Part shown: piece by piece, positions 1,644 to 20,707 of the stretch
Layout of the letters: the number at the start of each line of letters is the position of its first letter
Numbering within the stretch: position 1 is the stretch's first letter
DNA from: Sulfuritalea sp.
Lineage (GTDB): Bacteria > Pseudomonadota > Gammaproteobacteria > Burkholderiales > Burkholderiaceae_C
NCBI GenBank assembly: GCA_021737875.1
Contig: JAIPDD010000008.1
Span: 1-36,412 of the forward strand
Reading direction: 5' to 3'
Length of the DNA stretch: 36,412 nucleotides
Notes under the pieces: model-generated
Told to the model about the DNA's origin: nothing
Seen by the model: only the letters and a program-made list of their open reading frames with translations
Database searches by the model: none
Position numbers and translations under genes: made by a program

Positions 1644-2903
1644 GTGACTTCTCAGAGCCCTTTTTCGCCGCCGATTCGCCGGATTGCCCACCTCGACATG
1701 GATGCGTTTTACGCCTCCGTCGAGTTGTTGCGCTACCCGCAACTCAAAGGCCTGCCAGTGGTCATCGGTGGGGGACGCAGGCGCGAAGATGATGTGCTCA
1801 GACGATTGCGGCAGACCTACCCCAAGGCAGACTGGTCAGAAGATCGTTTGAATCAGATTCCGATTGATTTCTTTCCCCGCATCAAGGGCTACGAAGGCCG
1901 TGGCGTCATCACGACAGCAACCTACGCCGCCCGCCAATTCGGCGTTGGCTCAGCCATGGGCTTGATGAAAGCAGCCAAGCTCTGCCCCCAAGCGATTTTG
2001 TTGCCGGTGGATTTTGACCAGTACCGCCATTTCTCACGCCGGTTTAAAAGCATCATTACCGACATCGCTCCGGTGATGGAAAACCGAGGGGTTGATGAGG
2101 TATTTATTGACTTTACCGACGTTCCTGGCGGGCAGCGCGAAGGCGGTCGGGTCTTGGCGCGGCTGATCCAAAAAGCCATTTTTGACGACACCGGGCTGAC
2201 CTGCTCGGTGGGCGTGGCGCCCAACAAATTGCTGGCAAAAATGGCCAGTGAATTCAACAAGCCCAACGGAATTTCGGTGGTGACTGAAGAAGATCTAGAA
2301 ACCAAAATTTGGCCTTTGGCCTGCCGCAAAGTCAACGGCATCGGGCCCAAAGCCGATGAAAAACTCAAAAGCCATGGCATTGATACCATCGGCCAATTGG
2401 CCCAGCAGGAACTCGGCTGGTTGATCGACACCTTTGGCCAAAAAACGGGGGCCTGGCTGCACGATGCGTCTTGGGGGCGCGATACGCGGCCCTTAGAAAC
2501 GGCAAGTGAGCCCGTGAGCATGAGCCGAGAAACCACCTTTGAGCGGGATTTGCACGCGGTACGGGACCGCGCTGAGCTCGGCGAGGTATTTACCCGCTTG
2601 TGTGCCCAAGTGGCCGGCGATTTACAGCGCAAAGGCTATGTGGGAAAAACGATTGGCGTCAAACTACGCTTTGATGATTTTCAGATCGTGACCCGCGACC
2701 ACACGTTGAGCAACTACACCGCTGACGCCACAGCGATTCGACAGGCCGCTGGCCTGTGCCTCAAACGCGCCCCCTTGCAAAAACGCCTGCGTCTCTTGGG
2801 TGTCAGGGTTGGCGCGCTGCTCAGCGAAGATGCGGCTAAGCTACGCACCATTGAACCGGAGAACCCCTATGACAGCACTGCACAGCTTTTCCCTGACGAT
2901 TGA
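1644..2903 (+). CDS. dinB: DNA polymerase IV (Y-family, translesion)
   Basis: This 419-residue Y-family polymerase performs error-prone bypass of DNA lesions. The palm motif HLDMDAFYASVE (Asp18 and Asp20) and the second acidic pair Asp151-Glu152 (GVDEVFIDFTD) are intact. GVAPNKLLAKMASEFNKPNG and the helix-hairpin-helix stretch KVNGIGPKADEKL follow, then the little-finger domain. About 40 residues (44-86, RRREDDVLRR...RIKGYEG) are inserted between the first strands and GVITTATYAARQFGV. They are absent from E. coli DinB, and I recall such an insert from Burkholderiales homologues. The C-terminal AQLFPDD may be a sliding-clamp binding motif. The start is a GTG. The end overlaps the next gene by 35 bases. 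Confidence 0.93.
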   Translation: MTSQSPFSPPIRRIAHLDMDAFYASVELLRYPQLKGLPVVIGGGRRREDDVLRRLRQTYPKADWSEDRLNQIPIDFFPRIKGYEGRGVITTATYAARQFGVGSAMGLMKAAKLCPQAILLPVDFDQYRHFSRRFKSIITDIAPVMENRGVDEVFIDFTDVPGGQREGGRVLARLIQKAIFDDTGLTCSVGVAPNKLLAKMASEFNKPNGISVVTEEDLETKIWPLACRKVNGIGPKADEKLKSHGIDTIGQLAQQELGWLIDTFGQKTGAWLHDASWGRDTRPLETASEPVSMSRETTFERDLHAVRDRAELGEVFTRLCAQVAGDLQRKGYVGKTIGVKLRFDDFQIVTRDHTLSNYTADATAIRQAAGLCLKRAPLQKRLRLLGVRVGALLSEDAAKLRTIEPENPYDSTAQLFPDD

Positions 2904-3711
2904 AAACCATGTCGCCCATCTGGTGCTCAACCAGCCCAAGGCGATGAACACCATGCATCCGCAGTTTTGGCGGGAACTCGATGGCGTTTTGACTGATTTA
3001 CACCGCAGTGGCGAGGCGCGCGCCTTGGTCATCAGCAGCACGGGGAAACACTTCAGTGCGGGAATGGCTTTGGAGACCTTTGGTGGCGCGATTCAAATGA
3101 ACGACGCAAGCCCTGAAGGTCGCGCTGCGGTGTTTGACACCCTCAGTGATATGCAAGCGACTTTCACCAAACTCGAAACCCTGCGCATCCCTGTGATCGT
3201 GGCGATACAGGGTGGCTGTATTGGTGGCGCGGTCGATATGGTGACGGCCTGTTGCATTCGCTACGCCTCAGCTGAGGCTTTCTTTTGCATTCAAGAAATC
3301 AATATCGGCATGGTTGCAGACGTGGGTACCTTGCAGCGCCTGCCCAAACTCATTCCCTTGGCCGTTGTCAAAGAGCTGGCTTATACGGGGCGGCGTTTAA
3401 CGGCGGACAAAGCCATGCACTACGGCTTGGTCAACGCGGTGTTTGAGTCGCCAGAGGCCACACTGCAAGCGGCAATGGAATGCGCCAAGGAGATTGCCAG
3501 CAAACCCCCGGTTGCGATCTGGGGGACCAAACAAGCCATTCACTATGCGCGCGACCATACAGTCGATGCGTCTTTGAAGCAAATGGGCTGGCTCCAAGCT
3601 GCCATTTGGAGTAACCGCCATGTGGGTGAAGCGGTAACGGCCATGAAAGAAAAACGCGCTGGGAATTTCCCTGCACTGAGCGATCTGTCCTCGTTCAGAG
3701 ATCTCGCTTAA
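2869..3711 (+). CDS. Crotonase family, dienoyl-CoA isomerase-like
   Basis: The protein has 280 residues when started at MTALHSFSLTIENHVAHL, 23 codons inside the tracked ORF. That ATG has CGGAG about eight bases upstream and matches the usual crotonase N-terminus; the longer ORF only reads the dinB tail out of frame. HFSAGMALE and QGGCIGGAVDM form the oxyanion hole. Asp123, Glu143 and Asp151 (GGAVDMVTAC, IQEINIGMVADVGTLQRLP) match the acidic residues of delta3,5-delta2,4-dienoyl-CoA isomerase (ECH1) rather than the two glutamates of enoyl-CoA hydratase. Likely role: isomerising unsaturated acyl-CoA during beta-oxidation. It overlaps dinB by 35 bases, suggesting translational coupling without an obvious functional link. 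Confidence 0.85.
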   Translation: MTALHSFSLTIENHVAHLVLNQPKAMNTMHPQFWRELDGVLTDLHRSGEARALVISSTGKHFSAGMALETFGGAIQMNDASPEGRAAVFDTLSDMQATFTKLETLRIPVIVAIQGGCIGGAVDMVTACCIRYASAEAFFCIQEINIGMVADVGTLQRLPKLIPLAVVKELAYTGRRLTADKAMHYGLVNAVFESPEATLQAAMECAKEIASKPPVAIWGTKQAIHYARDHTVDASLKQMGWLQAAIWSNRHVGEAVTAMKEKRAGNFPALSDLSSFRDLA

Positions 3712-5903: not shown

Positions 5904-8900
5904 ATGCGTGCCGTTTTTACTTGGCACACCACCCCAATGCGTACTCTCCCCCACAAAGTTGAACAACCTGGCTTGGACAGCCTGTCCAAATCGTTTGAGC
6001 CTGCTGCGCTTGAAGCCCATTGGGGGCCTGAATGGGAAAAACGGGGTTACGGCATCGCGGGGTTCAGAGGCACGCAAGCGCCCAAAGAAAGTGCGCCCAA
6101 CTTTGCCATTCAACTCCCGCCGCCCAACGTCACCGGCACCTTGCACATGGGCCATGCCTTCAACCAAACCATCATGGACAGCCTGACCCGCTACCACCGT
6201 ATGGCTGGATTCAATACCGCGTGGATTCCCGGTACCGACCATGCCGGCATTGCCACCCAAATCGTGGTGGAGCGCCAATTGCAAGGCCAAGGCATCAGCC
6301 GCCACGACATGGGAGCAACGCCTTTTGAGGCGCGCAAGAATTTTGTGAACAAGGTTTGGGAATGGAAGGAGCAGTCGGGCAACACCATCACCACCCAAAT
6401 GCGCCGTATGGGCGACAGCGTGGACTGGAGTCGTGAATATTTCACGATGGACCCCAAATTGTCCAAGACCGTGACCGAAACCTTTGTGCAGCTCTACGAG
6501 CAAGGCCTCATTTACCGCGGCAAGCGCTTGGTGAATTGGGACCCGGTGTTGCAAAGCGCCGTCAGCGATTTAGAAGTAGAGAGTACCGAGTCCGAAGGCA
6601 AGATGCACTACATCTTGTACCCTTTCGCCCAAGGCGAGCAGTTGGTTGATGGCGTCAAGCAAAAAGGCATGACGATTGCCACCACACGGCCCGAGACCAT
6701 GATGGCCGATGGCGCGCTGGCGGTTCATCCTGAAGACGAACGCTACAAGCACCTGGTCGGCCAAATGGTGGACCTGCCCCTTTGCAACCGCCAAATCCCC
6801 ATCATCGCCGATGACTTCGTTGACCGTGCCTTTGGCTCGGGCTGCGTCAAGATCACGGGCGCGCACGATTTCAACGACTACGCCTGCGCCCAGCGTCACG
6901 GCTTGCCCTTGATCACCATCTTCACCCTAGACGCCAAGGTCAATGAAAACGGTCCCGCCGTTTACCAAGGCCTGGACCGCTTTGCCGCCCGCAAAGCCGT
7001 CAACCGCGACCTCGAAGCCCGGAGTTTGATGCTGGAGATCAAACCCCACAAAATGATGCTCCCCATCTGCGCCCGCACCGGCCAAGTGGTGGAGCCTATG
7101 CTGACCGACCAGTGGTTTATTGCCATGAACCAAGTCAGCGCGCAAGACCCCAGTGGCAAAAGCATCGCCCAAAAAGCCATTGATGCCGTGGCCTCTGGAG
7201 AGGTGACTTTTGTTCCTGAAAACTGGGTCAACACCTACAACCAGTGGATGAACAACATCCAAGACTGGTGCATCAGCCGACAACTCTGGTGGGGCCACCA
7301 AATCCCCGCGTGGTACGACGAAGAAGGCAATGTCATCGTCGCTCGCAATGAAGCCGATGCCCAAGCCCAGGCGCCAGGAAAAAAACTGCGGCGCGACGAA
7401 GACGTGCTTGATACCTGGTACTCCAGCGCACTCGTGCCGTTTTCAACCACGGGTTGGAGCAACGCTGCCAGCGGGCATGCCGCGACCGGTAGCAGCGATT
7501 TGGCGAGCGTAGCGAGTATGAGCAAAACCGGTTCCGGCATGCCCGCTGGTGGCCCCCAAAGCGACTACAACCTTTACTTACCCAGTAGCGTCCTCGTCAC
7601 TGGCTACGACATCATCTTCTTCTGGGTTGCCCGAATGATCATGATGACCACGCACTTTACCGGCCGCGTTCCCTTCAAGCATGTCTACATCCACGGCTTG
7701 GTGCGTGACGCGCAAGGCAAAAAAATGAGCAAATCCGAGGGCAATGTATTGGACCCCGTTGATTTGATTGATGGCATTGCCTTGGAGCCTTTGCTTGAGA
7801 AACGCTCACAAGGTTTGCGCAAACCCGAAACCGCCCCGCAAGTCCAAAAGAATACCCAAAAAGAATTCCCAGAAGGCATTCCCGCCTATGGCGCCGACGC
7901 CCTGCGTTTTACCTTTGCTGCACTCGCGTCATTAGGTCGCAGCATCAACTTTGACAGCAAACGCTGCGAGGGCTACCGCAACTTTTGCAACAAACTCTGG
8001 AACGCCACCCGCTTTGTGCTGATGAACTGCGAAGGCCAAGACTGTGGCTTGAAAGAGCACACCAAGGCAGAGTGCGTTGTGGGCGGACCGGCCCACGGCT
8101 ATCTCGATTTCAGCCAGTCCGACCGTTGGATTGCATCGCGACTACAGCGCGTGGAAGCCGAAGTTGCCAAAGGCTTTGCGGAATACCGTTTGGACAACGT
8201 TGCCAATACGATTTATGAATTTGTGTGGAATGAATTTTGTGACTGGTACCTTGAAATCGCCAAAGTCCAAATCAACAGCGGAACGCCAGAGCAGCAACGC
8301 GCCACCCGCAGAACCTTGATCCGAACACTGGAAACTATTTTGCGTTTAGCGCACCCGGTCATCCCATTTATCACCGAAGAGTTATGGCAAAAGGTCGCCC
8401 CTGTGGCTGGGCGTGCAGGCCCATCCGTCAGCATTGCGGCCTACCCCGTGAGCCAACCCGAGCGCATCGATGAAGTCGCAGAAGCCCATGTTGCCCGGCT
8501 CAAACAACTGGTTGACGCATGCCGAAACCTGCGTGGGGAAATGAACGTTTCGCCAGCGACCCGTTTGCCTTTGTTTGTCTTGACCCAAAGCAGCGCTGAA
8601 ACCGCGTTTTGGAAATCAACGGCGCCCGTTTTACAAGCCTTGGCCAAACTCAATGAGGTGCGCTTGTTTGAAGACGAAGCGGCGTGGTCAGAGGCGGCCC
8701 AGGCCGCACCGGTTGCGGTGCTTGGCGATGCCCGCATTTGTCTGCACATGGAAATTGACCTGGCGGCCGAGAAAATTCGCTTGGGTAAAGAAGTCGTGCG
8801 CCTTGAAGGTGAGATTGCCAAGGCCCATGGAAAACTATCGAACGAGGCCTTTGTTGCCAAAGCCCCTCCTGCAGTGATTGACCAAGAGCGCAAGCGCATG

Positions 8901-8957
8901 GCTGATTTTGCAGAGACGGTGACGAAATTGCAGGAGCAGTTAAAGCGACTGGGTTAA
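5904..8957 (+). CDS. valS: Valyl-tRNA synthetase with in-frame palindromic insertion
   Basis: A class I aminoacyl-tRNA synthetase charging tRNA-Val. The HIGH-type motif is HMGH at residues 81-84 ([13 protein letters not shown]), [10 protein letters not shown] marks the catalytic core, and KMSKS lies at about 607-611 ([14 protein letters not shown]). The C-terminal coiled coil typical of ValRS ([22 protein letters not shown]...LQEQLKRLG) is present. At 1017 residues it is longer than the usual ~950. Much of the excess is a Ser/Ala/Gly-rich stretch at about 522-549, between [16 protein letters not shown] and [12 protein letters not shown], where homologues such as E. coli have a shorter loop. 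ATG 5937 is an alternative start; neither has a clear Shine-Dalgarno sequence. Confidence 0.96.
7468..7549. repeat. 82-bp palindromic element inserted in valS
   Basis: The left arm CCAGCGGGCATGCCGCGACCGGT (7468-7490) is the reverse complement of the right arm (7527-7549) except at two adjacent positions. The 36-base centre contains GGCGAGCGTAGCGAGT. The element sits inside valS without disrupting the frame and encodes a low-complexity Ser/Ala/Gly peptide. This looks like a small non-autonomous palindromic repeat (REP/MITE/RPE-like). No second copy was noticed in the window. Confidence 0.8.
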
Positions 8958-8987
8958 GGGCTAAGGGTTTAAGGGGTTAAGGCTTTA
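8954..8987. repeat. Short degenerate TTAAGG repeats between convergent genes
   Basis: The junction of valS and the tusA-like gene reads TTAAGGGCTAAGGGTTTAAGGGGTTAAGGCTTTAG, with four spaced copies of TAAGG. Both stop codons lie in or beside it. It is probably a degenerate slippage-prone spacer, and no terminator hairpin with a T-run is seen. Confidence 0.5.
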
Positions 8988-9224
8988 GCGCCGGCGCATC
9001 ACATGGCTGTGCTCTGCGCCCTGGGTGTGTTGCTCCAGCAAGGTATTGCCAGTTTGCTTGGCAAAGGCTTGGAAATCGCGAATGGAGCCCACGTCGGTAG
9101 AGACCACCTTGAGCACTTGACCGCTGGCCATTTCTGAGAGGGCTTTTTTCGCCTTCAAAATCGGAAGCGGGCAATTCAAGCCACGGGTGTCAATTTCTTT
9201 GTCAATGGTGAATTCAGGTTGCAT
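8985..9224 (-). CDS. TusA/SirA-family sulfur carrier protein
   Basis: A 79-residue protein with the TusA/SirA signature RGLNCPLPILKAKKAL. Cys18 in the CPxP motif is the expected persulfide-carrying residue. The rest (VLKVVSTDVGSIRDFQAFAKQTGNTLLEQ) matches the two-layer alpha/beta fold of the family. Such proteins relay sulfane sulfur for tRNA thiolation, molybdenum cofactor or other sulfur chemistry; which relay this one serves cannot be told. It follows the Nudix gene by 24 bases and cysM upstream on the same strand, so a small sulfur-related operon is plausible. The C-terminus ends in an unusual RRR. Confidence 0.9.
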   Translation of the reverse strand: MQPEFTIDKEIDTRGLNCPLPILKAKKALSEMASGQVLKVVSTDVGSIRDFQAFAKQTGNTLLEQHTQGAEHSHVMRRR

Positions 9225-9248
9225 GGTTTGCGGTGGTTGAGGGTTTCT

Positions 9249-9803
9249 TCAATCGTTGGTTTCTGGCGCTGGTTCTTGCGGTTTCGGCCATTCCATAAAT
9301 TCAGGCTTTAGACCCTTTGACGTGAGCCAATCCGCCAAGGCATAGCCAGTGCCAGACGGCCAGCATTTCAAGTTTTCTGGGGCCACCATGCGGTAATCGA
9401 CCAACTCCGGCGAAAGTCGAACCTCTCCGTGGCACACCGCATGAAACGCGATGATGACTTGGTTCATTCTTTGAAAGTCATACACGCCGATCAAGTTGAG
9501 CGCATCGGTAGTCAAGTTGGTTTCTTCTGCAATTTCGCGTTGTATGCCTTCTTGCGCAGTTTCACCGGCTTCCATAAAGCCGGTAATCAAGGCGTACATT
9601 TTTCCCGGCCACGCGGCGTTACGCGCTAACAAAATGTTCCCATCGACTTCCACCACCGCGGCCAAGACCGGTGTCGGGTTGTTCCAGTGGGTGTAATTGC
9701 ACGACGGGCAGCGCAAGCGCGACTTGTCCCCGCCGTCTTCGGCCTGGCTGATCCAAGCCAAAGGAGCGGCACATTGGGGACAAAATTTAAATGCATGGGT
9801 CAT
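9249..9803 (-). CDS. Zinc-ribbon Nudix hydrolase
   Basis: The tracked ORF (245 aa) overlaps cysM. The realistic start is the ATG at 9801-9803, giving 184 residues beginning MTHAFKFCPQCAAPL. An N-terminal zinc ribbon (Cys8, Cys11, Cys32, Cys35) precedes a Nudix box at about 75-97, GFMEAGETAQEGIQREIAEETNL. It matches Gx5Ex7REUxEExGU except for Asn in place of the last Gly. The ribbon-plus-Nudix layout recalls NudC (NAD-cap/NADH pyrophosphatase), but the NudC SQPWPFP motif after the box is absent, so the substrate is uncertain. It lies 17 bases after cysM, in the same direction. Confidence 0.85.
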   Translation of the reverse strand: MTHAFKFCPQCAAPLAWISQAEDGGDKSRLRCPSCNYTHWNNPTPVLAAVVEVDGNILLARNAAWPGKMYALITGFMEAGETAQEGIQREIAEETNLTTDALNLIGVYDFQRMNQVIIAFHAVCHGEVRLSPELVDYRMVAPENLKCWPSGTGYALADWLTSKGLKPEFMEWPKPQEPAPETND

Positions 9804-9820
9804 CGCTTCGTCTCTGGGCT

Positions 9821-10723
9821 TTAAGCGGGAAAAACACCCGTTGAAAGATAGCGGTCGCCGCGGTCGCAAACGATAAACACGATGGTTGCGTTGGATTCGC
9901 GCTTGGAAATTTCTTGTGCCACCCAACAAGCCCCAGCGGCAGAAATACCCGCAAAAATGCCTTCTTCGCGGGCCATGCGCCGACACATCGTTTCTGCATC
10001 GTCTTGGCTGACATAGACGAGCTCATCGACGTTGGCCGGATCGTAAATTTTGGGAAGGTAAGCCTGCGGCCACTTTCGAATACCTGGAATGCGCGAGCCC
10101 TCAGAGGGTTGGGCGCCGATGATTTGGATGGCGGGGTTTTTTTCTTTCAGATACCGAGACACGCCCGTGATGGTGCCGGTCGTGCCCATAGCACTGACAA
10201 AGTGGGTAATTTTCCCTGCCGTATCAGTCCAAATTTCTGGGCCCGTGGTTTCGTAATGAATGCGAGGGTTATCCATATTGGCAAATTGGTCTAAGACATG
10301 GCCCTTGCCCTCGGATTTCATCCTCTCTGCCAAATCACGCGCATGTTCCATCCCGCCGCTCTTGGGGGTCAGAATCAACTCCGCCCCAAAGGCCTTCATG
10401 GTCTGAACACGCTCAATAGACAAGTCCTCGGGCATGATGAGGACCATGCGATAGCCCTTGATGGCCGCAGCCATCGCAAGCGCAATCCCCGTGTTGCCCG
10501 ATGTTGCTTCAATCAAGGTGTCGCCGGGTTGAATCTCGCCGCGCTCTTCGGCCCGTTGAATCATGGACAAGGCCGGTCTGTCTTTGACGGAGCCAGCGGG
10601 GTTATTGCCCTCGAGTTTCCCGAGGACAATGTTGTGGCGTGACGCGTTGGTTTCAGAGCCAATGCGCTGCAAAGCAACCAAAGGCGTTTTTCCAATAACG
10701 TTTTCTAAAGTGGGGTAAATCAT
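9821..10723 (-). CDS. cysM: Cysteine synthase B (O-acetylserine sulfhydrylase)
   Basis: A 300-residue fold-type II PLP enzyme making cysteine (or S-sulfocysteine from thiosulfate) from O-acetylserine. The PLP-binding lysine is Lys47 in NNPAGSVKDRPA. The substrate loop is EATSGNTGIALA (about 72-83) and the PLP-phosphate loop is SAMGTTGTITG. QPSEGSRIPGIRKWPQAYLP is the CysM-type segment that distinguishes it from CysK. Length is normal for CysM. It heads the minus-strand run cysM, Nudix, tusA-like. It is divergent from the small secreted protein at 10780, with 56 bases between the starts. Confidence 0.95.
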   Translation of the reverse strand: MIYPTLENVIGKTPLVALQRIGSETNASRHNIVLGKLEGNNPAGSVKDRPALSMIQRAEERGEIQPGDTLIEATSGNTGIALAMAAAIKGYRMVLIMPEDLSIERVQTMKAFGAELILTPKSGGMEHARDLAERMKSEGKGHVLDQFANMDNPRIHYETTGPEIWTDTAGKITHFVSAMGTTGTITGVSRYLKEKNPAIQIIGAQPSEGSRIPGIRKWPQAYLPKIYDPANVDELVYVSQDDAETMCRRMAREEGIFAGISAAGACWVAQEISKRESNATIVFIVCDRGDRYLSTGVFPA

Positions 10724-10779
10724 GCGCTTAAATGTGCCACAATTTTCGAAGTACCCAAAACCCGTAAAGTGATGACCTT

Positions 10780-11103
10780 ATGACGCAGTCCACCCATCCC
10801 TCAAAGAGTTCCGCTTGGCATATTTTGCTTCTGGCCGCAGTGGCGCTGCTGCCCACTTTGTCCTTCGCAGAAATGAAACCCAAAATCTACAAAGTCATTG
10901 ACACCCAATGCGATATTTCTGAGCAAGAAATCGCCACGGGCGGGCAATTTGTTTGCCACTATATTTGCCGTGATGAAGGAAAGAGTAAGGCCGCTGTGGT
11001 TTATAGCAATTCCGGTTCAGGAAAATGCCGAACTCCCATCCCCAGGAAAATCAAAGTACCGGTGGAAGAAGTGAAAAAGGTCGAACCCCCTAAAGGGCAC
11101 TAA
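10780..11103 (+). CDS. Small secreted cysteine-containing hypothetical protein
   Basis: A 107-residue protein with an N-terminal signal peptide (SSAWHILLLAAVALLPTLSFAEM; SFA before a likely cleavage site). The mature part holds four cysteines (TQCDI, FVCHYICRD, GKCRTP), suggesting disulfides in the periplasm, and ends VEEVKKVEPPKGH. No known family is recognised. The spacing YKV...C and the terminal K-GH are shared with the minus-strand protein at 68-313. No strong Shine-Dalgarno sequence precedes the ATG. Confidence 0.65.
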   Translation: MTQSTHPSKSSAWHILLLAAVALLPTLSFAEMKPKIYKVIDTQCDISEQEIATGGQFVCHYICRDEGKSKAAVVYSNSGSGKCRTPIPRKIKVPVEEVKKVEPPKGH

Positions 11104-11195
11104 AGCGACAAGGCGGGTCCCTCACTCGAATAATTTTTTCGGCCTCAAAGTTTGCGTCTGAACTGTGACATAATTTAAGGCTTCACAAGTTACCT

Positions 11196-11280
11196 GCCCG
11201 GGTGGTGAAATTGGTAGACTCAGGGGACTCAAAATCCCCCGCCGCAAGGCGTGCCGGTTCGAGTCCGGCCCCGGGCACCA
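11196..11280 (+). tRNA. tRNA-Leu (anticodon CAA)
   Basis: An 85-nt tRNA including an encoded CCA. The acceptor stem GCCCGGG pairs with CCCGGGC before ACCA. The anticodon stem GGGGA/TCCCC encloses the loop CTCAAAA, giving anticodon CAA (reads UUG). A long variable arm (CGCCGCAAGGCG) marks a class II tRNA, and the T arm GCCGG-TTCGAGT-CCGGC is complete. The gene stands alone and is followed directly by an intrinsic terminator. No integrase or att duplication is nearby. Confidence 0.97.
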
Positions 11281-11288
11281 ATGACAAA

Positions 11289-11320
11289 GCCGCAAGATTT
11301 AACTCTCTTGCGGCTTTTTT
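11289..11320 (+). terminator. Intrinsic terminator of tRNA-Leu
   Basis: A perfect nine-base stem, GCCGCAAGA (11289-11297) and TCTTGCGGC (11306-11314), has an 8-nt loop and is followed by six T (11315-11320). It extends by A-T pairs at the base. This is the clearest Rho-independent terminator in the window and separates the tRNA from the mttB operon. Confidence 0.93.
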
Positions 11321-11334
11321 CATGGCGGTTTTAC

Positions 11335-11351
11335 GCAATTTTATAAATTGC
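11335..11351. promoter_or_regulatory. 17-bp palindrome upstream of the methylamine operon (candidate operator)
   Basis: GCAATTT-TAT-AAATTGC has perfect 7-bp arms around a 3-bp centre, about 140 bases upstream of the mttB-like start and just after the tRNA terminator. It is typical in size and symmetry for a dimeric helix-turn-helix regulator site. No regulator gene is adjacent, so the cognate protein is unknown. Confidence 0.5.
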
Positions 11352-11393
11352 TTCACTGGGCTTTTGGCAGACACTTTACTGGGGCTTACTGCA

Positions 11394-11399
11394 TAGAAT
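11394..11399 (+). promoter_or_regulatory. Candidate -10 element (TAGAAT) for the mttB operon
   Basis: TAGAAT matches the sigma70 -10 consensus at five of six positions and lies about 95 bases upstream of the mttB-like ATG, downstream of the palindrome. No convincing -35 hexamer is found at 16-18 bases, which would fit an activator-dependent promoter. Weak evidence. Confidence 0.25.
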
Positions 11400-11493
11400 T
11401 CACGACAGCAGCTGCCAGCTCACAGGGAATTTTCATGTGTGGGCCCAGTTTGATGAACACCCCAAGCAACGGTAAAACGTGGAGACTTCCAAT

Positions 11494-13053
11494 ATGTCAG
11501 ACGAAGCAACAACGCCAAGCAGCCCCTCAAGGCGTCGCACAGGCCGGGGTAGCGGCACAATTCGTGTCGCGCCCTCCACCACCCAATACCGCAACCTCAA
11601 GCACCGGTTTACGCCCACACCGATGGTCTCTGAGGACGAGTTGGAAGCCATCCACAACGCCTCGCTGACCATTTTGGAAGAAATGGGCATGGATTTCATG
11701 CACGAAGGCGCGCGCGAGATACTGAAAAAAGCTGGGGCCGACGTGCGTGCAGGTTCTGAGCGCGTGCGTTTTGACCGCAATATGATTCTTGAGGCGATCA
11801 AAACCTGCCCTTCAGAATTCACGCTGCATGCGCGCAACCCCGAGCGCAATGTTCACATCGGTGGAAAAAATTTGGCATTTGCCCAAGTGGCCAGTCCACC
11901 GAACGCCTCCGACATGCAAGGCGGTCGCCGCGCTGGCAACCAACGCGATTTCCGTAACTTGGTCAAGTTGGCCCAACGCTATGACGTGATCCACTGCTCT
12001 GGCGGCTACCCCGTAGAACCGGTCGATTTGCATGCCTCAATTCGGCATCTGGATTGCTTGTCCGATATTGCCAAGCTCACGGACAAGCCTTTTCACGCCT
12101 ACTCTTTGGGCAAGGAACGCAATGAAGACGGCTTAGAAATTGCACGCATTGCCCGGGGTATCACCAAAGAGCAAATGGACCGAGAGCCTTCCTTGTTCTC
12201 GATCATCAACAGCTCGTCACCTTTGCGCTTAGATACGCCCATGTTGCAAGGCATCATAGAAATGTCGGCCCGCAACCAAATTATTATTTTGACGCCCTTC
12301 ACCTTGGCAGGCGCCATGGCCCCAGTGACGATTGCTGGCGCGCTCGCACAGCAAAATGCCGAAGCATTGGCAGGTATTGCCTTTACCCAGCTGGTTCGCC
12401 CCGGAGCCCCGGTGGTGTACGGCGGCTTTACTTCGAATGTGGACATGAAAACGGGGGCGCCTGCGTTTGGAACCCCGGAGTACATGAAAGCAGTCCTGGT
12501 GGGTGGGCAGTTGTGCCGCAAATACGGCGTTCCCTACCGCACTTCCAATGTCAACGCCGCCAACACCGTGGATGCCCAAGCGGCTTACGAGTCGGTGTTT
12601 TCGCTGTGGGCCCTGACCCAGGCCGGTGGCAACTTCATCATGCATTCAGCAGGCTGGATGGAAGGTGGACTCACCGCGTCGTTTGAGAAATTTATTCTCG
12701 ACTGCGATCTACTGCAAATGGTCGCTGAGTTTTTAACGCCACTGGATGTCAGCCCGGCCGGTCTGGGGCTCGATGCCGTGCGCGAGGTTGGCCCCGGCGG
12801 GCATTACTTTGGCACCGCCCACACCTTGGAGCGTTTTGAAACCGCGTTTTACTCTCCCATCATCTCAGATTGGCGCAATTTTGAGACCTGGGAAGAAGCC
12901 GGTAAACCCACGGCGTACGAAAAGGCGAATTCCGTTTGGCAAAAAGAGTTGGCTGCTTACGAGCGCCCTCCTATGGACAAAGCCATTGAAGAAGAACTAG
13001 ACGCCTTTGTGGCAAAACGCAAATCTGAGGGTGGCGTACCCACTGACTTCTAA
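11494..13053 (+). CDS. MttB-family (non-pyrrolysine) amine methyltransferase homologue
   Basis: A 519-residue member of the trimethylamine methyltransferase (MttB, PF06253) family. Family blocks include EDELEAIHNASLTILEEMGMDF, FAQVASPPNASDMQGGRR, CSGGYPVEPVDLHASIRHLDCL, TPFTLAGAMAPVTIAGALAQQNAEALAGI and VREVGPGGHYFGTAHTLERF. The frame runs uninterrupted, so this is not a pyrrolysine TAG-readthrough enzyme. Characterised non-Pyl relatives such as MtgB demethylate quaternary amines (glycine betaine) onto a corrinoid protein. ATG 11494 is preferred, with GGAG nine bases upstream, over the tracked GTG. The dimethylglycine-dehydrogenase-like gene follows after 37 bases, which points to a betaine-type substrate. 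No corrinoid protein is encoded nearby. Confidence 0.85.
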   Translation: MSDEATTPSSPSRRRTGRGSGTIRVAPSTTQYRNLKHRFTPTPMVSEDELEAIHNASLTILEEMGMDFMHEGAREILKKAGADVRAGSERVRFDRNMILEAIKTCPSEFTLHARNPERNVHIGGKNLAFAQVASPPNASDMQGGRRAGNQRDFRNLVKLAQRYDVIHCSGGYPVEPVDLHASIRHLDCLSDIAKLTDKPFHAYSLGKERNEDGLEIARIARGITKEQMDREPSLFSIINSSSPLRLDTPMLQGIIEMSARNQIIILTPFTLAGAMAPVTIAGALAQQNAEALAGIAFTQLVRPGAPVVYGGFTSNVDMKTGAPAFGTPEYMKAVLVGGQLCRKYGVPYRTSNVNAANTVDAQAAYESVFSLWALTQAGGNFIMHSAGWMEGGLTASFEKFILDCDLLQMVAEFLTPLDVSPAGLGLDAVREVGPGGHYFGTAHTLERFETAFYSPIISDWRNFETWEEAGKPTAYEKANSVWQKELAAYERPPMDKAIEEELDAFVAKRKSEGGVPTDF

Positions 13054-13090
13054 GCTATCAAAACATTTTTCTGATTAAAGGAACCTGGAC

Positions 13091-15523
13091 GTGAAAACAA
13101 CAGCACAAGTGGTCGTTATTGGTGGCGGTGTCGTGGGATGCTCCGTGCTTTACCACCTGACCAAACTCGGTATGAAAGATGTGGTTTTGCTCGAGCGCGA
13201 CCAACTCACTTCGGGGTCGACTTGGCATGCAGCCGGCGGATTTCATACGCTCAACGGTGACCCCAACGTAGCCAAGCTGCAAACCTATACCGTCAATTTG
13301 TACAAAGAACTCGAAGAGGTCTCTGGACAATCGTGCGGTTTGCATTTGTCTGCGGGTCTGATGCTCGCAGACACCCCTGAGCGCATGGAGTTTTTAAAGC
13401 ACACCCAAGCCAAAGGCCGCTACCTCGGGATGGAAACCGAAATCATCTCGATGGCAGAAGCCAAAAAGCACTTTCCATTGCTCGATGAAAAACACTTTTT
13501 AGGCGCGCTCTACGACCCCAACGAAGGCCACTTGGACCCGTCGGGAACCACCCATGCCTATGCCAAAGCGGCGCGTTTGGGCGGCGCCACCATTGAGTTG
13601 CAAACCATGGTGGAAAAATTAGAGCCCCGTGCAGACGGTGGATGGAACGTGATCACCAACAAAGGCACCATTGTTGCGGAACATGTGGTGAACGCTGGCG
13701 GACTGTGGGCGCGTGAGGTCGGACGCATGGTGGGCATTGAGTTGCCAGTTTTGGCCATGGAACACATGTACATGATTACGGAAGACATTCCTGAAGTCAT
13801 GGCGTTCAACAAATCCAGCGGCAAAGAATTAGGCCATGTGATTGACTTTGGAGGCGAGAGCTACCTGCGCCAAGAGCGCAACGGCGTTTTGCTTGGAACG
13901 TATGAACGCGCTGGCAAGCCCTGGTCACCTAAAAACACACCGTGGTCTTTTGGCCAAGAGTTGCTGCAACCCGATATTGACCGCTTGTTGCCTTCTTTGG
14001 AAATTGCGTTTAAGCACTTCCCTATTCTGGAGAACACCGGTATCAAGCAAGTGATCAACGGGCCCTTTACCTTTGCGCCCGACGGCAACCCTTTGGTCGG
14101 CCCGGTCCAAGGTTTGTCTAACTTCTGGTGTGCCTGTGGCGTGATGGCGGGCTTTAGCCAAGGCGGTGGCGTCGGCTTGGCACTCGCCAACTGGATGGTG
14201 CACGGCGACCCAGAGTTTGACGTGTGGGGCATGGATGTCAGCCGCTATGGTGACTGGGCCAGCCGCACCTATACCAACGCCAAAGTACGCGAGAATTATT
14301 CCCGGCGCTTTCGTATTCGTTTTCCGAACGAAGAGTTGCCAGCGGCGCGTCCTTTGCAAACCACGCCTTTGTACGACCGCATGCTCTCGCAAGGCGCAGT
14401 TATGGGCGACAGCTGGGCGATGGAAACGCCGCTGTGGTTTGCACCCAAAGGCAGCAAGGCCGAAGACATTGTGTCTTTCCACCGCTCCAATGACTTTGAA
14501 CCGATCAAAGCCGAATGCAAGGCCGTTCGTGAAGCCGTTGGTATTACCGAGATTGCCAACTTCGCCAAGTACGAGATCACTGGGGTCGGCGCTGAAACTT
14601 GGTTGCTCAAGGTCATGACCAATGCCATGCCAAAAACGGGCCGCTTGGTCTTAACGCCGATGCTCAACCACAACGGCAAATTGATTGGTGACTTTACGGT
14701 GGCCAAAGCCGCTGACAACCGTTACCTGATGTGGGGTTCGAGCCAAGCGCAGGTTTACCACATGCGTTGGTTTGAACAAACGCTGCCCAAAGATGGTTCC
14801 GTCGTCATCAAACCCTACGGCATGAAGCTCGTTGGCCTGTCCATTGCTGGCCCCAAAGCCCGCGATCTGCTGGCCCGGGTGTGTGACGAAGACGTTTCTA
14901 ATGACGCCTTCAAGTTCATGGACTACCGCGAAATGGTGGTTGCCAATGTGCCCACCATGACCAACCGCATTACCTACACCGGTGACTTGGGCTATGAAAT
15001 TTGGGTCTCGCCTGAATATGAGCTGTGCCTGTATGAGGCCTTGATGGAAGCAGGAAAAGACCTCGGCTTGCGCAACTTTGGAATGCGCGCCCTGCTGTGC
15101 TTGCGCTTAGAGAAAAACTTTGGCACCTGGTACCGCGAATTCCGCCCCATTTACGGCGCGTTTGAAGCGGGTCTGGATCGTTTTGTCAAATTTGACAAGG
15201 GTGACTTTATCGGCAGAGCCGCTGCGTTAAAGGAAAAAGAAGAAGGCCCCAAACTCACCCGCATTTACATGGTTGTGGATGCCACCACAGCCGACGTGAT
15301 GGGCGACGAGCCGATTTGGCACCAAGACAAAGTCGTGGGCTGGGTCACTTCTGGTGGCTTTGGTCACTACGTCAATCAGTCATTGGCCCAAGGGTATGTG
15401 CCCACCGAATTATTGAGTGGGCCGGACTTGAGTTTCCAAATTGAAATCTTGGGGGATCGCCGGTCTGCCACCTTGCAGATGGACCCCCCGTTTGATCCCA
15501 AGGCTTTGCGCATGCGCATGTAG
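13091..15523 (+). CDS. Dimethylglycine dehydrogenase-like FAD oxidoreductase fused to GcvT
   Basis: An 810-residue two-domain flavoprotein. The N-terminal DAO-type FAD domain starts with VVVIGGGVVGCSVLYHL and has LTSGSTWHAAGG. His46 in that motif corresponds to the histidine that carries covalent FAD in mammalian dimethylglycine dehydrogenase. From about residue 430 there is an aminomethyltransferase (GcvT) folate-binding domain ending PPFDPKALRMRM. Expected reaction: dimethylglycine to sarcosine (or a similar N-methyl oxidation), with the carbon captured as 5,10-methylene-THF. The GTG start has AAGGA eight bases upstream. It lies between the mttB-like gene and soxBDAG; sarcosine dehydrogenase is the main alternative, but SoxBDAG next door makes that redundant. 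Confidence 0.88.
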   Translation: MKTTAQVVVIGGGVVGCSVLYHLTKLGMKDVVLLERDQLTSGSTWHAAGGFHTLNGDPNVAKLQTYTVNLYKELEEVSGQSCGLHLSAGLMLADTPERMEFLKHTQAKGRYLGMETEIISMAEAKKHFPLLDEKHFLGALYDPNEGHLDPSGTTHAYAKAARLGGATIELQTMVEKLEPRADGGWNVITNKGTIVAEHVVNAGGLWAREVGRMVGIELPVLAMEHMYMITEDIPEVMAFNKSSGKELGHVIDFGGESYLRQERNGVLLGTYERAGKPWSPKNTPWSFGQELLQPDIDRLLPSLEIAFKHFPILENTGIKQVINGPFTFAPDGNPLVGPVQGLSNFWCACGVMAGFSQGGGVGLALANWMVHGDPEFDVWGMDVSRYGDWASRTYTNAKVRENYSRRFRIRFPNEELPAARPLQTTPLYDRMLSQGAVMGDSWAMETPLWFAPKGSKAEDIVSFHRSNDFEPIKAECKAVREAVGITEIANFAKYEITGVGAETWLLKVMTNAMPKTGRLVLTPMLNHNGKLIGDFTVAKAADNRYLMWGSSQAQVYHMRWFEQTLPKDGSVVIKPYGMKLVGLSIAGPKARDLLARVCDEDVSNDAFKFMDYREMVVANVPTMTNRITYTGDLGYEIWVSPEYELCLYEALMEAGKDLGLRNFGMRALLCLRLEKNFGTWYREFRPIYGAFEAGLDRFVKFDKGDFIGRAAALKEKEEGPKLTRIYMVVDATTADVMGDEPIWHQDKVVGWVTSGGFGHYVNQSLAQGYVPTELLSGPDLSFQIEILGDRRSATLQMDPPFDPKALRMRM

Positions 15524-15534
15524 GAGCTGTCCTG

Positions 15535-16791
15535 ATGTCTCATTACTCGGCATGGTCTTTGTTGCGCAATGCGCTCAGTGGACACCAACATTGGGAGCGG
15601 GCTTGGCGAGACCCGCAACCGAAAAAAACCTATGACGTGATCATTGTCGGAGGGGGTGGGCACGGACTCGCCACAGCCTACTACCTTGCCAAAAACCATG
15701 GCATCAAAAATATTGCTGTGCTGGAAAAAGGCTATATTGGTTCGGGCAATGCGGGGCGCAACACCACCATCGTGCGTTCCAACTACATGATGCAAGAGAA
15801 CACCCCGTTCTACGAGCACTCCATGTCTTTGTGGCGTGACCTGTCGGCGGACTTGAACTACAACGTGATGTTTTCTCCACGCGGCTATTTGTACGTGGTT
15901 GTGTCGCCAAACGCACTCGATGCACAAATTCGCCGCGCCAACACCATGCGCTTGAACGGAATTCGCGCTGAAATTTTGACGCGTGAAGACGTGATGAAAG
16001 AAGCGCCCTACCTGGACTTTTCTGCCAACGCGCGCTTTCCCATTTACGGCGCCATGCTCCAACCCGATGCCGGAACGGCCCGCCACGACGCCGTGGTCTG
16101 GGGCTACGCCCGCGCAGCCAGTGACTTGGGCGTAGACATCATCCAAAACTGCGAAGTGCTGGATTACGAATGGTCGGGCGAGCGCATCACTGGCGTCAAA
16201 ACCACCCGCGGCGATATCAGCGCAGCCAAGGTAGGTATTGCAGTTGCGGGGAACACTTCTCCCTTGGCGCAAAAAGCCGGCTTAACGCTCCCCATTGAAA
16301 GCCACGTCTTGCAGGCCTATGTCACGGAGTCCATCAAGCCCATCGTGAACCACGTTGTTGTATGGTCGGCTTCGTATTTTTACTTTTCGCAGTCTGACAA
16401 AGGAGGCTTGGTGTTTGGCGGGCATATTGACCGCTACAACTCGTATGCCCAACGCGGCAATCTCGCCAATGTGGGTGAGGTGTCCCAGGCCTTGGTCAGT
16501 GCCATGCCTAGCGCAGCGCGTTTGCGAGTGTTGCGCCACTGGGGTGGCATCATGGACATGACACCCGATGGAAGCCCCATCATCACAACAACGCCCGTTG
16601 ATGGCTTGTACCTCAACGGCGGTTGGTGTTACGGCGGCTTCAAGGCCACGCCCGCTTCGGGTTGGTGTTTTGCCCACACCATTGCCAATGACAAAGCGCA
16701 TGACTTTAACGCTGGCTTCACCATGGACCGATTTGCAAAAGGCCGGTACATCGATGAAGCAGGCACCGGTCCTTACAACCATTTGCAATAA
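15535..16791 (+). CDS. soxB: Sarcosine oxidase beta subunit
   Basis: A 418-residue subunit of heterotetrameric sarcosine oxidase (SoxBDAG), which oxidises sarcosine to glycine, with formaldehyde passed to THF and oxygen reduced to peroxide. The dinucleotide fold YDVIIVGGGGHGLATAYYLAKNHG binds FAD. GTARHDAVVWG (His184) matches the histidine that covalently binds FMN in characterised beta subunits. GYIGSGNAGRNTTIVRSNY and RHWGGIMDMTPDGSPII are family blocks. AGGAG lies seven bases before the ATG, overlapping the end of the upstream gene. First of the canonical B-D-A-G order. Confidence 0.95.
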   Translation: MSHYSAWSLLRNALSGHQHWERAWRDPQPKKTYDVIIVGGGGHGLATAYYLAKNHGIKNIAVLEKGYIGSGNAGRNTTIVRSNYMMQENTPFYEHSMSLWRDLSADLNYNVMFSPRGYLYVVVSPNALDAQIRRANTMRLNGIRAEILTREDVMKEAPYLDFSANARFPIYGAMLQPDAGTARHDAVVWGYARAASDLGVDIIQNCEVLDYEWSGERITGVKTTRGDISAAKVGIAVAGNTSPLAQKAGLTLPIESHVLQAYVTESIKPIVNHVVVWSASYFYFSQSDKGGLVFGGHIDRYNSYAQRGNLANVGEVSQALVSAMPSAARLRVLRHWGGIMDMTPDGSPIITTTPVDGLYLNGGWCYGGFKATPASGWCFAHTIANDKAHDFNAGFTMDRFAKGRYIDEAGTGPYNHLQ

Positions 16792-16834: not shown

Positions 16835-17104
16835 ATGCTCAGAATTGACTGTCCCTATTGCGGCAAACGCGACCACGAAGAGTTCAGCTACTTTGGCGAT
16901 GCCACCAAACCCTACCCCGGCTTAGAGGTTGAAAACCACGATGCCTGGGTCGACACCGTGTACACGCGCAACAACCCCCGTGGAATTCACACGGAGTTTT
17001 GGCAACACACTTTGGGCTGCCGCCGTTGGTTGGTGGTGAAACGCCATACCGTGACGCATGACATTGAATCGGTCATCCCTGCGTCAGAAAGAACACTGCC
17101 ATGA
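16835..17104 (+). CDS. soxD: Sarcosine oxidase delta subunit (zinc-binding)
   Basis: An 89-residue delta subunit. The zinc ligands expected in the family are all present: Cys6 and Cys9 (CPYCGKRD), His58 and Cys62 (WQHTLGCRRW). The C-terminal block VVKRHTVTHDIESVIPA is also characteristic. It helps assemble the SoxBDAG tetramer. The stop codon overlaps the soxA start by four bases (ATGA), indicating translational coupling. The ribosome-binding site is weak (AAGAAAG). Confidence 0.95.
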   Translation: MLRIDCPYCGKRDHEEFSYFGDATKPYPGLEVENHDAWVDTVYTRNNPRGIHTEFWQHTLGCRRWLVVKRHTVTHDIESVIPASERTLP

Positions 17105-20100
17105 ACGCAAGTCAACACCCCGGCGGCGCTTTCCGCCTTGCTACTGGCGGGCGCATCGACCGAAGCCAAAAAGTGCGCTTTACCTTGGACGGAAAAACCA
17201 TTGAAGGGTTTGCAGGCGACACCGCAGCGTCAGCCCTCATCGCCCACGGCCAACACCTGGTGGCGCGCTCTTTCAAGTACCACCGCCCCCGTGGATTCAT
17301 GGGCGCAGGCGTTGAAGAAACCAATGCCCTGCTGACTGTTGGCCAAGACGGAACGCGCGAACCCAATATTGCTGCAACAGTGCTCGAAATAGAGCCAGGC
17401 CTTACCACCCAAACCCAAAATGCATGGCCGTCGGTGCGCTTTGATCTGATGGCGATCAACTCGGTCTTGTCGCCTTTTTTTGTGGCGGGCTTTTACTACA
17501 AGACATTCATGGGGCCAACCCGTGGTGCATGGATGCTTTATGAGCACTTCATTCGCAAAGCAGCTGGCTTAGGCGCCTCGGCCATTGATGCCGATGTCAA
17601 CCGCTATGACTGGCACAACGATTACACCGACGTCCTTGTCATTGGCTCGGGAGCCGCTGGTCTCAGTGCCGCCCTCAACGCAGCCCGCGCAGGGGCCGAT
17701 GTCATGCTTGTTGAGCAAGATTTCGAAATGGGTGGTGACTTGCTCAACCACAACGTTGACAGTGCGCAAGCAAAGTGGCTCAAGCAAACACTGCAAGACA
17801 TTGATGCCACTGGCAAAGTCAAACGGTTCACCCGTGCCACCGCGTTTGGCGTGTACGACGGCAATACTGTTGGCGTCATCGAGCGCTCTGCCCCTGGTGT
17901 GACCGATCCCGCCTTTGGCGTTCCGCGCCAACGCATGCGCACCGTTCGGGCTGCAGCCATCGTGATGGCGTGTGGTGCGATTGAGCGCCCGTTGGTGTTT
18001 GCTGGCAATGACAAACCCGGCGTCATGCTAGCCAGCGCGGTGTCTTCTTATGTCAACCGCTATGCCGTTGCCCCCGGAAAGAACGCGCTGTTTTGTGTCA
18101 ATAACGATGCCGCTTACCTTGGGGCCTTTGCCTTGGCGCGCAGTGGTGCAAGCGTTCACGTGGCAGACCTTCGGGCGTCGGTCCCTGAAGATCTGACCAG
18201 TCAAGCGCAGCAGTTGGGTATCACCCTTCACACCAGCACAGCGGTGACAGAGGTTCAAGGAGGCTTGCATGCCAAGTCATGCACCTTATCGCACTACGAC
18301 GCGACCAACGCAACAGTTCAAAGTGAAAAGTGCCGTTTAGCGATTGATCTGGTCGCGATGTCGGGCGGATGGACGCCCACGGTGCACCTGAGCTCCCACC
18401 GCAACGTCAAACCCATTTACCGCACGGATATCGCTTGCTTTGTCCCTGGCGCTTTTGATCGCGCCCAATTCGGCGCGGGCTCGATGGTGGGTGAACAAAC
18501 ATGGCGTGGTGCGATTGCATCGGGATGGCTTGCCGGTGCGCAAGCCGCTGGTTTTTTGGGACGCCAAGCCGCTGGGCCAGCCCCTGTGATGGACGACGCC
18601 ACCTCCATGGCGTTTGTTCCTGCGGGACCTTTGCGCGACGCCCAGTCCAAAGGCAAAGCCTTTATTGATTTTCAAAACGATGTCACCGTCTCCGATATCG
18701 AATTGGCGCACCGCGAAGGCTACCAATCGGTAGAGCACCTCAAGCGCTACACCACCTCGGGCATGGGAACCGACCAAGGCAAGACGTCGAACTTGAATGC
18801 CTTGACCCTGATGGCCGCCCAACGTGAAATGGATATTTCTGCGGTCGGTACAACCACATTTCGCCCGCCCTACACCCCGGCGTCCTTGGGCGCTTTGGCT
18901 GGCCGCAATATTGGCCCCCACTTCCAACCGGAGCGGCGAACGTCCATGCACGACTGGCATCTTGCGCATGGCGGCGTCAAGATGGAAGCGGGCTTGTGGC
19001 TGCGCCCCCTGTGGTACAGCACCCACGGCGCAACCTTGTCCGAGGCCTACAAAGTGGAGATGGACTTTGTGCGTGAAAAGGCAGGCATCGCTGACACCTC
19101 CACTTTGGGGAAAATTGATGTTCAAGGCCCCGATGCTGCAGAGTTTTTAGACCGCGTGTATGTCAATGGCTTCTCCAAACTTGCCGTTGGCAAAGCCCGC
19201 TATGGATTCATGTTGCGTGAAGACGGCATCGTGCTAGACGATGGAACAACCAGTCGCATCAGCCCGACCCAGTTCTTTATGACCACCACCACCGCACAAG
19301 CTGCTCGGGTGATGAGCCATTTGGAATTTTTATTGCAAGTCGTTTGGCCCGAGTTGCGGGTTACCGTGGCTTCGGTCTCCGACCAATGGGCTGCCATGAG
19401 TGTGGCAGGTCCCGAAGTGCGCAAGGTCTTAGAAGCGGCATTCCCCAACGTAGATTTCAGTACCGACGTTTTCCCCCATATGGGTGTGCTCGACACGGTT
19501 GGAACCGGCGCGTTGGCTGGTGTGCCTTTGCGCATTTTGCGTTTGACTTTTTCTGGCGAATTGGCCTACGAAGTTTTCACACCCACCCACCTGGGTTACC
19601 GCGTTTGGGAACACTTGCTTGCAAGTGGCAAACCATGGCAACTGCGCCCCTACGGCCTGGAGGCTTTGGGTTCTTTGCGGATTGAAAAAGGCCACGTGGT
19701 GGGCTCGGAAATGGATGGACGCACCACCTTGGATGACCTGGGTATGGGCAAGATGGCCAGCAAACTCAAACCCTTTTGGGGCGGGGCGCTGCGCCAAAGC
19801 GAAAACTTGCAGCGCACCAACCGGCCAACCCTGGTGGGACTGGAGGCCATTGGCAAAGACGATGCGCCGTCCAACGGTGCGATTTTGTTCTTTGCCGATG
19901 ACACGGTCCAAGGCCACGGCCGCGGTCATATCACCTCCACCACCTTTAGCAAATCCATGGGAAAAGCCATTGGCTTAGGCCTGCTAGAGGGTGGCACGGC
20001 CCATGTTGGCAAAGAAATTATTGCTGCCTCTCCCACGCAAGGACGCCAGTACCGACTGCGGGTGGTAGACCCTTGCTTCCTCGATGCAGAAGGAGTGCGT

Positions 20101-20112
20101 TACCGTGCTTGA
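17101..20112 (+). CDS. soxA: Sarcosine oxidase alpha subunit
   Basis: A 1003-residue alpha subunit. Order of domains: an N-terminal ferredoxin-like domain (VRFTLDGKTIEGFAGDTAASAL...ARSFKYHRPRG), which has no cysteine cluster and so should bind no Fe-S, as in known SoxA; a Rossmann domain from about 177 (DVLVIGSGAAGLSAALNAARAGADVMLVEQ) that binds NAD; and a C-terminal GcvT folate domain (from about 600, with FSGELAYEVFTPTHLGYRVWEHLL). The last domain transfers the sarcosine methyl carbon to THF as 5,10-methylene-THF. Length is normal. Overlaps of 4 bases with soxD and 8 with soxG tie the subunits together. Confidence 0.96.
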   Translation: MNASQHPGGAFRLATGGRIDRSQKVRFTLDGKTIEGFAGDTAASALIAHGQHLVARSFKYHRPRGFMGAGVEETNALLTVGQDGTREPNIAATVLEIEPGLTTQTQNAWPSVRFDLMAINSVLSPFFVAGFYYKTFMGPTRGAWMLYEHFIRKAAGLGASAIDADVNRYDWHNDYTDVLVIGSGAAGLSAALNAARAGADVMLVEQDFEMGGDLLNHNVDSAQAKWLKQTLQDIDATGKVKRFTRATAFGVYDGNTVGVIERSAPGVTDPAFGVPRQRMRTVRAAAIVMACGAIERPLVFAGNDKPGVMLASAVSSYVNRYAVAPGKNALFCVNNDAAYLGAFALARSGASVHVADLRASVPEDLTSQAQQLGITLHTSTAVTEVQGGLHAKSCTLSHYDATNATVQSEKCRLAIDLVAMSGGWTPTVHLSSHRNVKPIYRTDIACFVPGAFDRAQFGAGSMVGEQTWRGAIASGWLAGAQAAGFLGRQAAGPAPVMDDATSMAFVPAGPLRDAQSKGKAFIDFQNDVTVSDIELAHREGYQSVEHLKRYTTSGMGTDQGKTSNLNALTLMAAQREMDISAVGTTTFRPPYTPASLGALAGRNIGPHFQPERRTSMHDWHLAHGGVKMEAGLWLRPLWYSTHGATLSEAYKVEMDFVREKAGIADTSTLGKIDVQGPDAAEFLDRVYVNGFSKLAVGKARYGFMLREDGIVLDDGTTSRISPTQFFMTTTTAQAARVMSHLEFLLQVVWPELRVTVASVSDQWAAMSVAGPEVRKVLEAAFPNVDFSTDVFPHMGVLDTVGTGALAGVPLRILRLTFSGELAYEVFTPTHLGYRVWEHLLASGKPWQLRPYGLEALGSLRIEKGHVVGSEMDGRTTLDDLGMGKMASKLKPFWGGALRQSENLQRTNRPTLVGLEAIGKDDAPSNGAILFFADDTVQGHGRGHITSTTFSKSMGKAIGLGLLEGGTAHVGKEIIAASPTQGRQYRLRVVDPCFLDAEGVRYRA

Positions 20113-20707
20113 TTCAACTTTCCTACGCAGCCCCTTTACCGGGCACAATGCCGTTTCGCAGCCTGACAAGCAAGGTTTGGTTCAAGTGCATCTCCAGGCC
20201 CACGTCTTACCCAGCGTGACCCTCATCAGCACGTGGGTGCGTGGAGAAGCCAAGCTCGCGTCGACACTCAAGCAAGCATTGCAAGTGGCCATTCCACAGA
20301 GCACAGGAAAAACAGTGTCCTGTTCTCTTGGCTTATTGATGCGCACTGGGCCGCAAGAACTCATGCTCATTGGAACAAGGGATGAAGACATCCAAACGGC
20401 CTTGCGCGCGCATATAGTCGCCGACGTCGGTTCAGTCACCGATTTGAGCCAAGCGCGGTGCCGCATCCATGTCAGCGGAGCCAAGGCACAAGAAGCTTTG
20501 GGCAAGCTCTTCGCCCTGGACTTTCGCCAAGCTGCGTTTGCCTTGAATGACATCGCGCTGACGGGCCACCACCATGTGCCCTGCACGGTCCACCGCTTGG
20601 GGGATCAGTCGTTTGATCTCTATGTTTTCAGCACCTACGCCTTTGGGCAATTGGAGTCGCTTATCGATGCGTCGCGCGAATTTGGAGTCGATTTAAGTCT
20701 AAATTAA
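20105..20707 (+). CDS. soxG: Sarcosine oxidase gamma subunit
   Basis: 200 residues from a GTG at 20105, seven codons inside the tracked ORF. AAGGAG at 20090-20095 lies nine bases before this GTG, which decides the start and leaves an 8-base overlap with soxA. The gamma subunit is a GcvT-like small fold that stabilises the tetramer. Visible blocks are STWVRGEAKLASTLKQALQ, DLSQARCRIHVSGAKAQEALGKLFALDF and TVHRLGDQSFDLYVFSTYAFGQLESLID. Gamma is the least conserved subunit, but its position after soxA is canonical. Last gene of the methyl-amine block. Confidence 0.92.
   Translation: MLDSTFLRSPFTGHNAVSQPDKQGLVQVHLQAHVLPSVTLISTWVRGEAKLASTLKQALQVAIPQSTGKTVSCSLGLLMRTGPQELMLIGTRDEDIQTALRAHIVADVGSVTDLSQARCRIHVSGAKAQEALGKLFALDFRQAAFALNDIALTGHHHVPCTVHRLGDQSFDLYVFSTYAFGQLESLIDASREFGVDLSLN

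Follow-up and report, generated by a model that had tools for sequence, protein, structure and literature searches.

In the marine bacterium Ruegeria pomeroyi DSS-3, MtgB, MtgC and MtgD move a methyl group of glycine betaine to H4F (Mausz et al. 2025, PMC12478193). Methionine synthesis there draws on MtgC and MtgD as well, which form a split methionine synthase with MtgE, and RamA together with DUF1638 is proposed to re-reduce the cobalamin; the locus numbers of mtgB, mtgC, mtgD and ramA are well separated (PMC12478193). In the acetogen Eubacterium limosum, the MttB paralogues MtpB, MtcB and MtyB are encoded in separate clusters and share one corrinoid protein, with MtqC, MtqA and RamQ as the partner set (PMC8604678). 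In the MttB-MttC complex (7xcl, 7xcn), the dimerization-loop region of MttB contacts the corrinoid protein (PMC9842639). Our literature search found no paper tying an MtgBCDE-type system to Rhodoferax or to fresh water.

Here we consider an MttB-family gene of a freshwater Comamonadaceae bacterium, located in a stretch of 36,412 nucleotides that we call the window. A preliminary description had labelled the gene an orphan and supposed that its methyl acceptor was either encoded elsewhere or replaced by another acceptor or a different chemistry. Based on gene content, family assignment, conserved linkage and co-occurrence, we are highly confident that the gene encodes the MtgB-like methyltransferase of a modular cobalamin-dependent betaine demethylase, whose partners are encoded on another contig, C23, of the same metagenome-assembled genome (MAG).

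Results

The gene at 11494-13053 (+) is an intact open reading frame of 519 aa, with an alternative GTG start at 11479. Its product matches PF06253 (MttB superfamily, COG5598) with 684 bits across the entire profile (positions 1-500 of 500), so that the MttB homologue recognized earlier from the sequence stands as a full-length family member. Comparison with PDB sequences places it nearest 4yyc (E = 1.6e-120), then the glycine betaine methyltransferase MtgB of the anaerobe Desulfitobacterium hafniense (2qne/9yce, E about 1e-105), with which it is colinear over nearly its whole length, and further from pyrrolysine MttB (7xcl, E = 1.9e-43). It shares with the latter the family and the expected mode of corrinoid docking; unlike it, the window gene has no pyrrolysine codon, and identity is about 27%. 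The frame is open, with Val353 at the pyrrolysine column (position 334 of MttB proper), and the TIGR02369 score of 305 bits is below the cut-off of 525. Together with the tree described below, these matches make it a non-pyrrolysine, mtgB-like quaternary-amine:corrinoid methyltransferase gene of what we call clade I. The closest relatives come from Comamonadaceae or Rhodoferax-like MAGs, most of them apparently of lake or reservoir habitat, and a plasmid search returned mainly distant relatives and a single Shinella match at 72%.

Directly behind mttB, at short spacing, lies the flavoprotein gene announced in the preliminary description (13091-15523, +), which proves to be of the dimethylglycine/sarcosine dehydrogenase (DMGDH) type, a DAO-FAO_M-GCV_T-GCV_T_C fusion by Pfam with a folate-binding GcvT half. 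The operon continues on the same strand with the heterotetrameric sarcosine oxidase genes soxB (beta subunit, 15535-16791; TIGR01373, 648.7 bits, above cut-off), soxD (delta, 16835-17104; PF04267, 4.4e-29), soxA (alpha, 17101-20112; TIGR01372, 1176.7 bits, above cut-off) and soxG (gamma, 20084-20707; TIGR01375, 1.2e-22). The small soxD gene, easily missed, is conserved in relatives and ends in a stop codon that overlaps the start of soxA; soxG, at 80 bits, is below the curated cut-off of 144 and is assigned with the help of its position in the sox operon. With that proviso for soxG, the oxidase set is complete next to mttB, and the operon reads mttB-dmgdh-soxBDAG. The DMGDH-like gene stands directly downstream of the mttB orthologue in 24 of 25 betaproteobacterial loci, the remaining locus ending 75 bp past mttB, and also behind the orthologue in families f51 and f74 and in one f55 genome. 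The flavoprotein is presumed to take the demethylation step that follows MttB. The fragmented state of the MAG might raise the thought of a non-functional remnant or a misassembled gene that has no physiological partner; this is scarcely credible for an intact reading frame in a conserved operon, with orthologues at 85-94% identity in numerous independent MAGs as well as in an assembly (L060) that does not carry the MAG label.

The preliminary description had stated that no corrinoid protein, RamA-type activator or second methyltransferase is encoded in the 36-kb window, and a Pfam scan of 28 of its proteins indeed returned no PF02310/PF02607, RACo or PF00809 protein. It had also called for a search of the whole genome for B12-binding MtaC/MttC-like proteins and RamA, and this changed the picture. 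The MAG (2.17 Mb, 154 contigs, 82% complete) was searched family by family. PF02310 has four matches in it: methylmalonyl-CoA mutase, IcmF, a weakly matching 550-aa protein and a 233-aa MtaC/MtgC-type protein on C23, the only MtgC-type corrinoid protein found by this search. The single PF14574 match (RamA) and the only PF02574 match (an mtgE-like gene) are on C23 as well. In the coordinates of L011, a part of C23 (C23 coordinate = L011 + 7999), the genes, on the minus strand unless stated otherwise, are the mtgE-like homocysteine methyltransferase gene (2480-3619); betA, betB and a choline-binding protein gene; the reductive activase gene ramA (8074-10119; PF14574/17651/17650); mtgD for the pterin-binding second methyltransferase (10146-11120; PF00809, 324 aa); metF (11057-12118; PF02219); DUF1638 (12887-13504; PF07796); and mtgC (13544-14245, equal to C23:21543-22244; PF02310 and PF02607), after which are listed purU, the one gene not on the minus strand, a GbdR-like regulator gene and proW- and proV-like transporter genes. 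By inspection, the cobalt-ligand motif DxHxxG of MtgC reads GDIHDIG. All members of an MtgBCD(E) set other than the MttB-family protein, namely MtgC, MtgD, RamA with DUF1638, and an MtgE-like protein, are therefore encoded on C23. The label of orphan does not hold, and the gene's lone appearance is an artefact of window size; the mttC/ramA pair elsewhere in the genome, named beforehand as the finding that would overturn the label, is present at the level of gene content.

The distribution of the genes in other genomes bears on whether the window MttB works with this MtgC. Among genomes with an orthologue (n = 41), MtgC was found in 39, RamA in 39 and at least one of the two in all 41. Of the 121 genomes of the host's own family, 4 carry the MttB orthologue, and these 4 alone also have MtgC (85-100% identity); one of them (G113) has no RACo match. 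Among 399 sampled genomes of Pseudomonadota, the 41 MttB-positive ones, spanning nine families, all fall within the 42 that are MtgC-positive, an overlap with a chance probability of 3e-55 (hypergeometric, kinship ignored). The one genome with MtgC alone, G263 (C15:78164-78844, 68% identity; no MttB homologue at 1e-30), possibly retained it for methionine synthesis alone. Two mtgC matches, G139:C3:40058-40756 and G246:C1:56052-56738, were reported with one TGA inside the matched stretch.

Physical linkage points the same way. On a Hydrogenophaga MAG contig (L037), an MttB-DMGDH-SoxB-SoxA-SoxG run, its MttB 85% identical to that of the window, begins ~1 kb from a GbdR-PurU-MtgC-DUF1638-MetF-MtgD-RamA cluster. 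Eight alphaproteobacterial genomes of family f51 carry the orthologue (66-68%) 15-23 kb from mtgC, and each of the two that we read has a DMGDH-like gene directly downstream of mttB and an mtgE-like gene between. Orthologues in Rhizobiaceae (73-77%) stand apart from DMGDH and mtgC, and in some genomes (L043, L046) the orthologue is a lone gene adjoining a large PAS/hybrid histidine kinase gene; this context thus gave no functional clue. We also considered whether the MttB that does adjoin mtgC in Rhizobiaceae is the window's counterpart, and rejected this; that protein is 43-44% identical and belongs to clade II.

Let us consider, then, an MttB that works without MtgC and passes its methyl group to free cobalamin, tetrahydrofolate, homocysteine or some other acceptor. 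The lack of mtgC in the window operon would fit, and some MttB-family enzymes do use free cob(I)alamin as methyl acceptor in vitro, such as MV8460 (PMC6855144) and, according to a citation in PMC8604678, MtcB. The near-perfect co-occurrence with MtgC and the linkage in L037 and the eight f51 genomes speak against such chemistry and led us to reject it. In addition, the corrinoid-contacting dimerization-loop region is at least as conserved as the remainder of the protein (45-48% against 38-42% identity between the window protein and its own paralogues), which would be in keeping with docking to a corrinoid protein. We consider this alternative very improbable. Of the two suppositions made earlier about the acceptor, that of an acceptor encoded elsewhere is favoured by the C23 gene set, the linkage and the co-occurrence, and that of another acceptor or chemistry has become needless.

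The question of which substrate is demethylated is less one-sided. A tree and alignment split the aerobic MttB proteins into clade I (43 rows, among them the window protein) and clade II, which comprises a paralogue on contig C6 of the MAG, the mtgC-adjacent rhizobial MttBs, 4yyc and paralogues on contigs C70 and C142. In the loop where MttB has its pyrrolysine, all 43 clade I rows have a one-residue deletion and an Asn, whereas the 12 others examined (clade II, MtgB and Pyl-MttB sequences) all have Lys; the window loop lies at 12550-12564, codons 353-357, with N357 in place of Lys. The betaine contacts of D. hafniense MtgB (Y94, N199, R309, H345 and F353) are themselves docking predictions; of these, the equivalents of N199, R309 and H345 are retained in the window protein and throughout the 43 rows of clade I; at the Tyr94 position, clade I has Ala or Ser (Ala in the window protein) and clade II has Tyr, and F353 is replaced by Gly. 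Judged from sequence, the clade I pocket is related to the MtgB pocket but distinct from it.

The missing Tyr94 and Lys and the shortened loop count against the main reading. Because the loop lacks one residue and carries Asn for Lys, clade I may tentatively be proposed as a separate substrate class, still MtgC-dependent, whose substrate is something other than glycine betaine and whose product feeds the adjacent DMGDH-like enzyme. The same corrinoid system would then serve clade I acting on another betaine or a methylated amino acid and the clade II protein of C6 acting on glycine betaine; clade II, which stands beside mtgC in Rhizobiaceae and beside folD and sdaA on C6, might be the true or main glycine betaine enzyme. 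The uniform pocket signature of clade I and the precedent of E. limosum, where one corrinoid protein serves several MttB paralogues with different substrates (PMC8604678), agree with such a division of labour. However, the DMGDH-like and sarcosine oxidase genes fit a route from betaine through dimethylglycine and sarcosine to glycine, the three predicted contacts mentioned above are invariant in clade I, and two MttB proteins are induced in R. pomeroyi on glycine betaine (PMC12478193). We regard another substrate as possible, if somewhat doubtful. Because of the downstream DMGDH-sox genes, glycine betaine is most likely the substrate of the window MttB.

Some features of the other MttB genes of the MAG may be recorded here. 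C70 (L013 2333-5998) and C142 (L014 454-4119) carry 96-98% identical pairs of MttB and an OYE-type flavoprotein, which represent either strain variants within the MAG or a duplication of recent date; the product of this MttB might be demethylated by the flavoprotein. On C6 (L012 122-5600), the clade II gene lies between sdaA/folD and a gene for an M24/DddP-like protein (260 bits, where the DddP cut-off is 600), and two f51 genomes have a similar gene after the DMGDH-like one. A weak MttB fragment of 22.5 bits at the end of contig C17 (L015 5913-6074) is possibly a fifth, truncated paralogue.

The search of the 82%-complete MAG returned no MetH cobalamin domain, an absence that, given this incompleteness, rests partly on relatives: among betaproteobacterial genomes with MtgC, only G139 and G145 have a MetH-like match. 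Nearly all other members of the host's own family have one. Contig C92 encodes a 350-aa core-MetE-like protein. Given that a classical MetH went undetected in the genome, MtgC and MtgD with the MtgE-like protein probably also make methionine in the host.

Discussion

In our preferred reading, with glycine betaine as the presumed substrate, the window MttB would move one methyl group from the quaternary amine onto the Co(I) corrinoid carried by MtgC, the shared partner, from which MtgD would transfer it to tetrahydrofolate for oxidation by MetF/FolD. RamA, perhaps with DUF1638, would re-reduce the corrinoid when it falls into the inactive Co(II) state. The DMGDH-like enzyme and SoxBDAG of the window operon would then carry out the next two demethylations, stepwise to glycine.

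By gene content, this arrangement resembles MtgBCDE of R. pomeroyi, with an MttB-family demethylase, MtgC, MtgD, MtgE, RamA, DUF1638 and metF, an mtgB unlinked from mtgC and mtgD, and no classical MetH. A separate mtgB locus is normal, since mtgB, mtgC, mtgD and ramA of R. pomeroyi themselves have well-separated locus numbers, and separate clusters served by one corrinoid protein are found in E. limosum too, although that acetogen uses other substrates. Unlike the marine system, the present one belongs to freshwater Burkholderiales, carries mttB together with DMGDH-like and soxBDAG genes in one operon, and has its own active-site loop.

The system type, glycine-betaine demethylation by MtgBCDE, is thus already known and is here extended to Burkholderiales. 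This removes a false lead, as no new methyl acceptor is needed, and the clade I-specific loop raises a concrete question on substrate range. Described for bacteria of the sea, the MtgBCDE scheme reaches freshwater Burkholderiales in which MetH mostly goes undetected; B12-dependent use of betaine may therefore be joined to the synthesis of methionine in freshwater Burkholderiales too.
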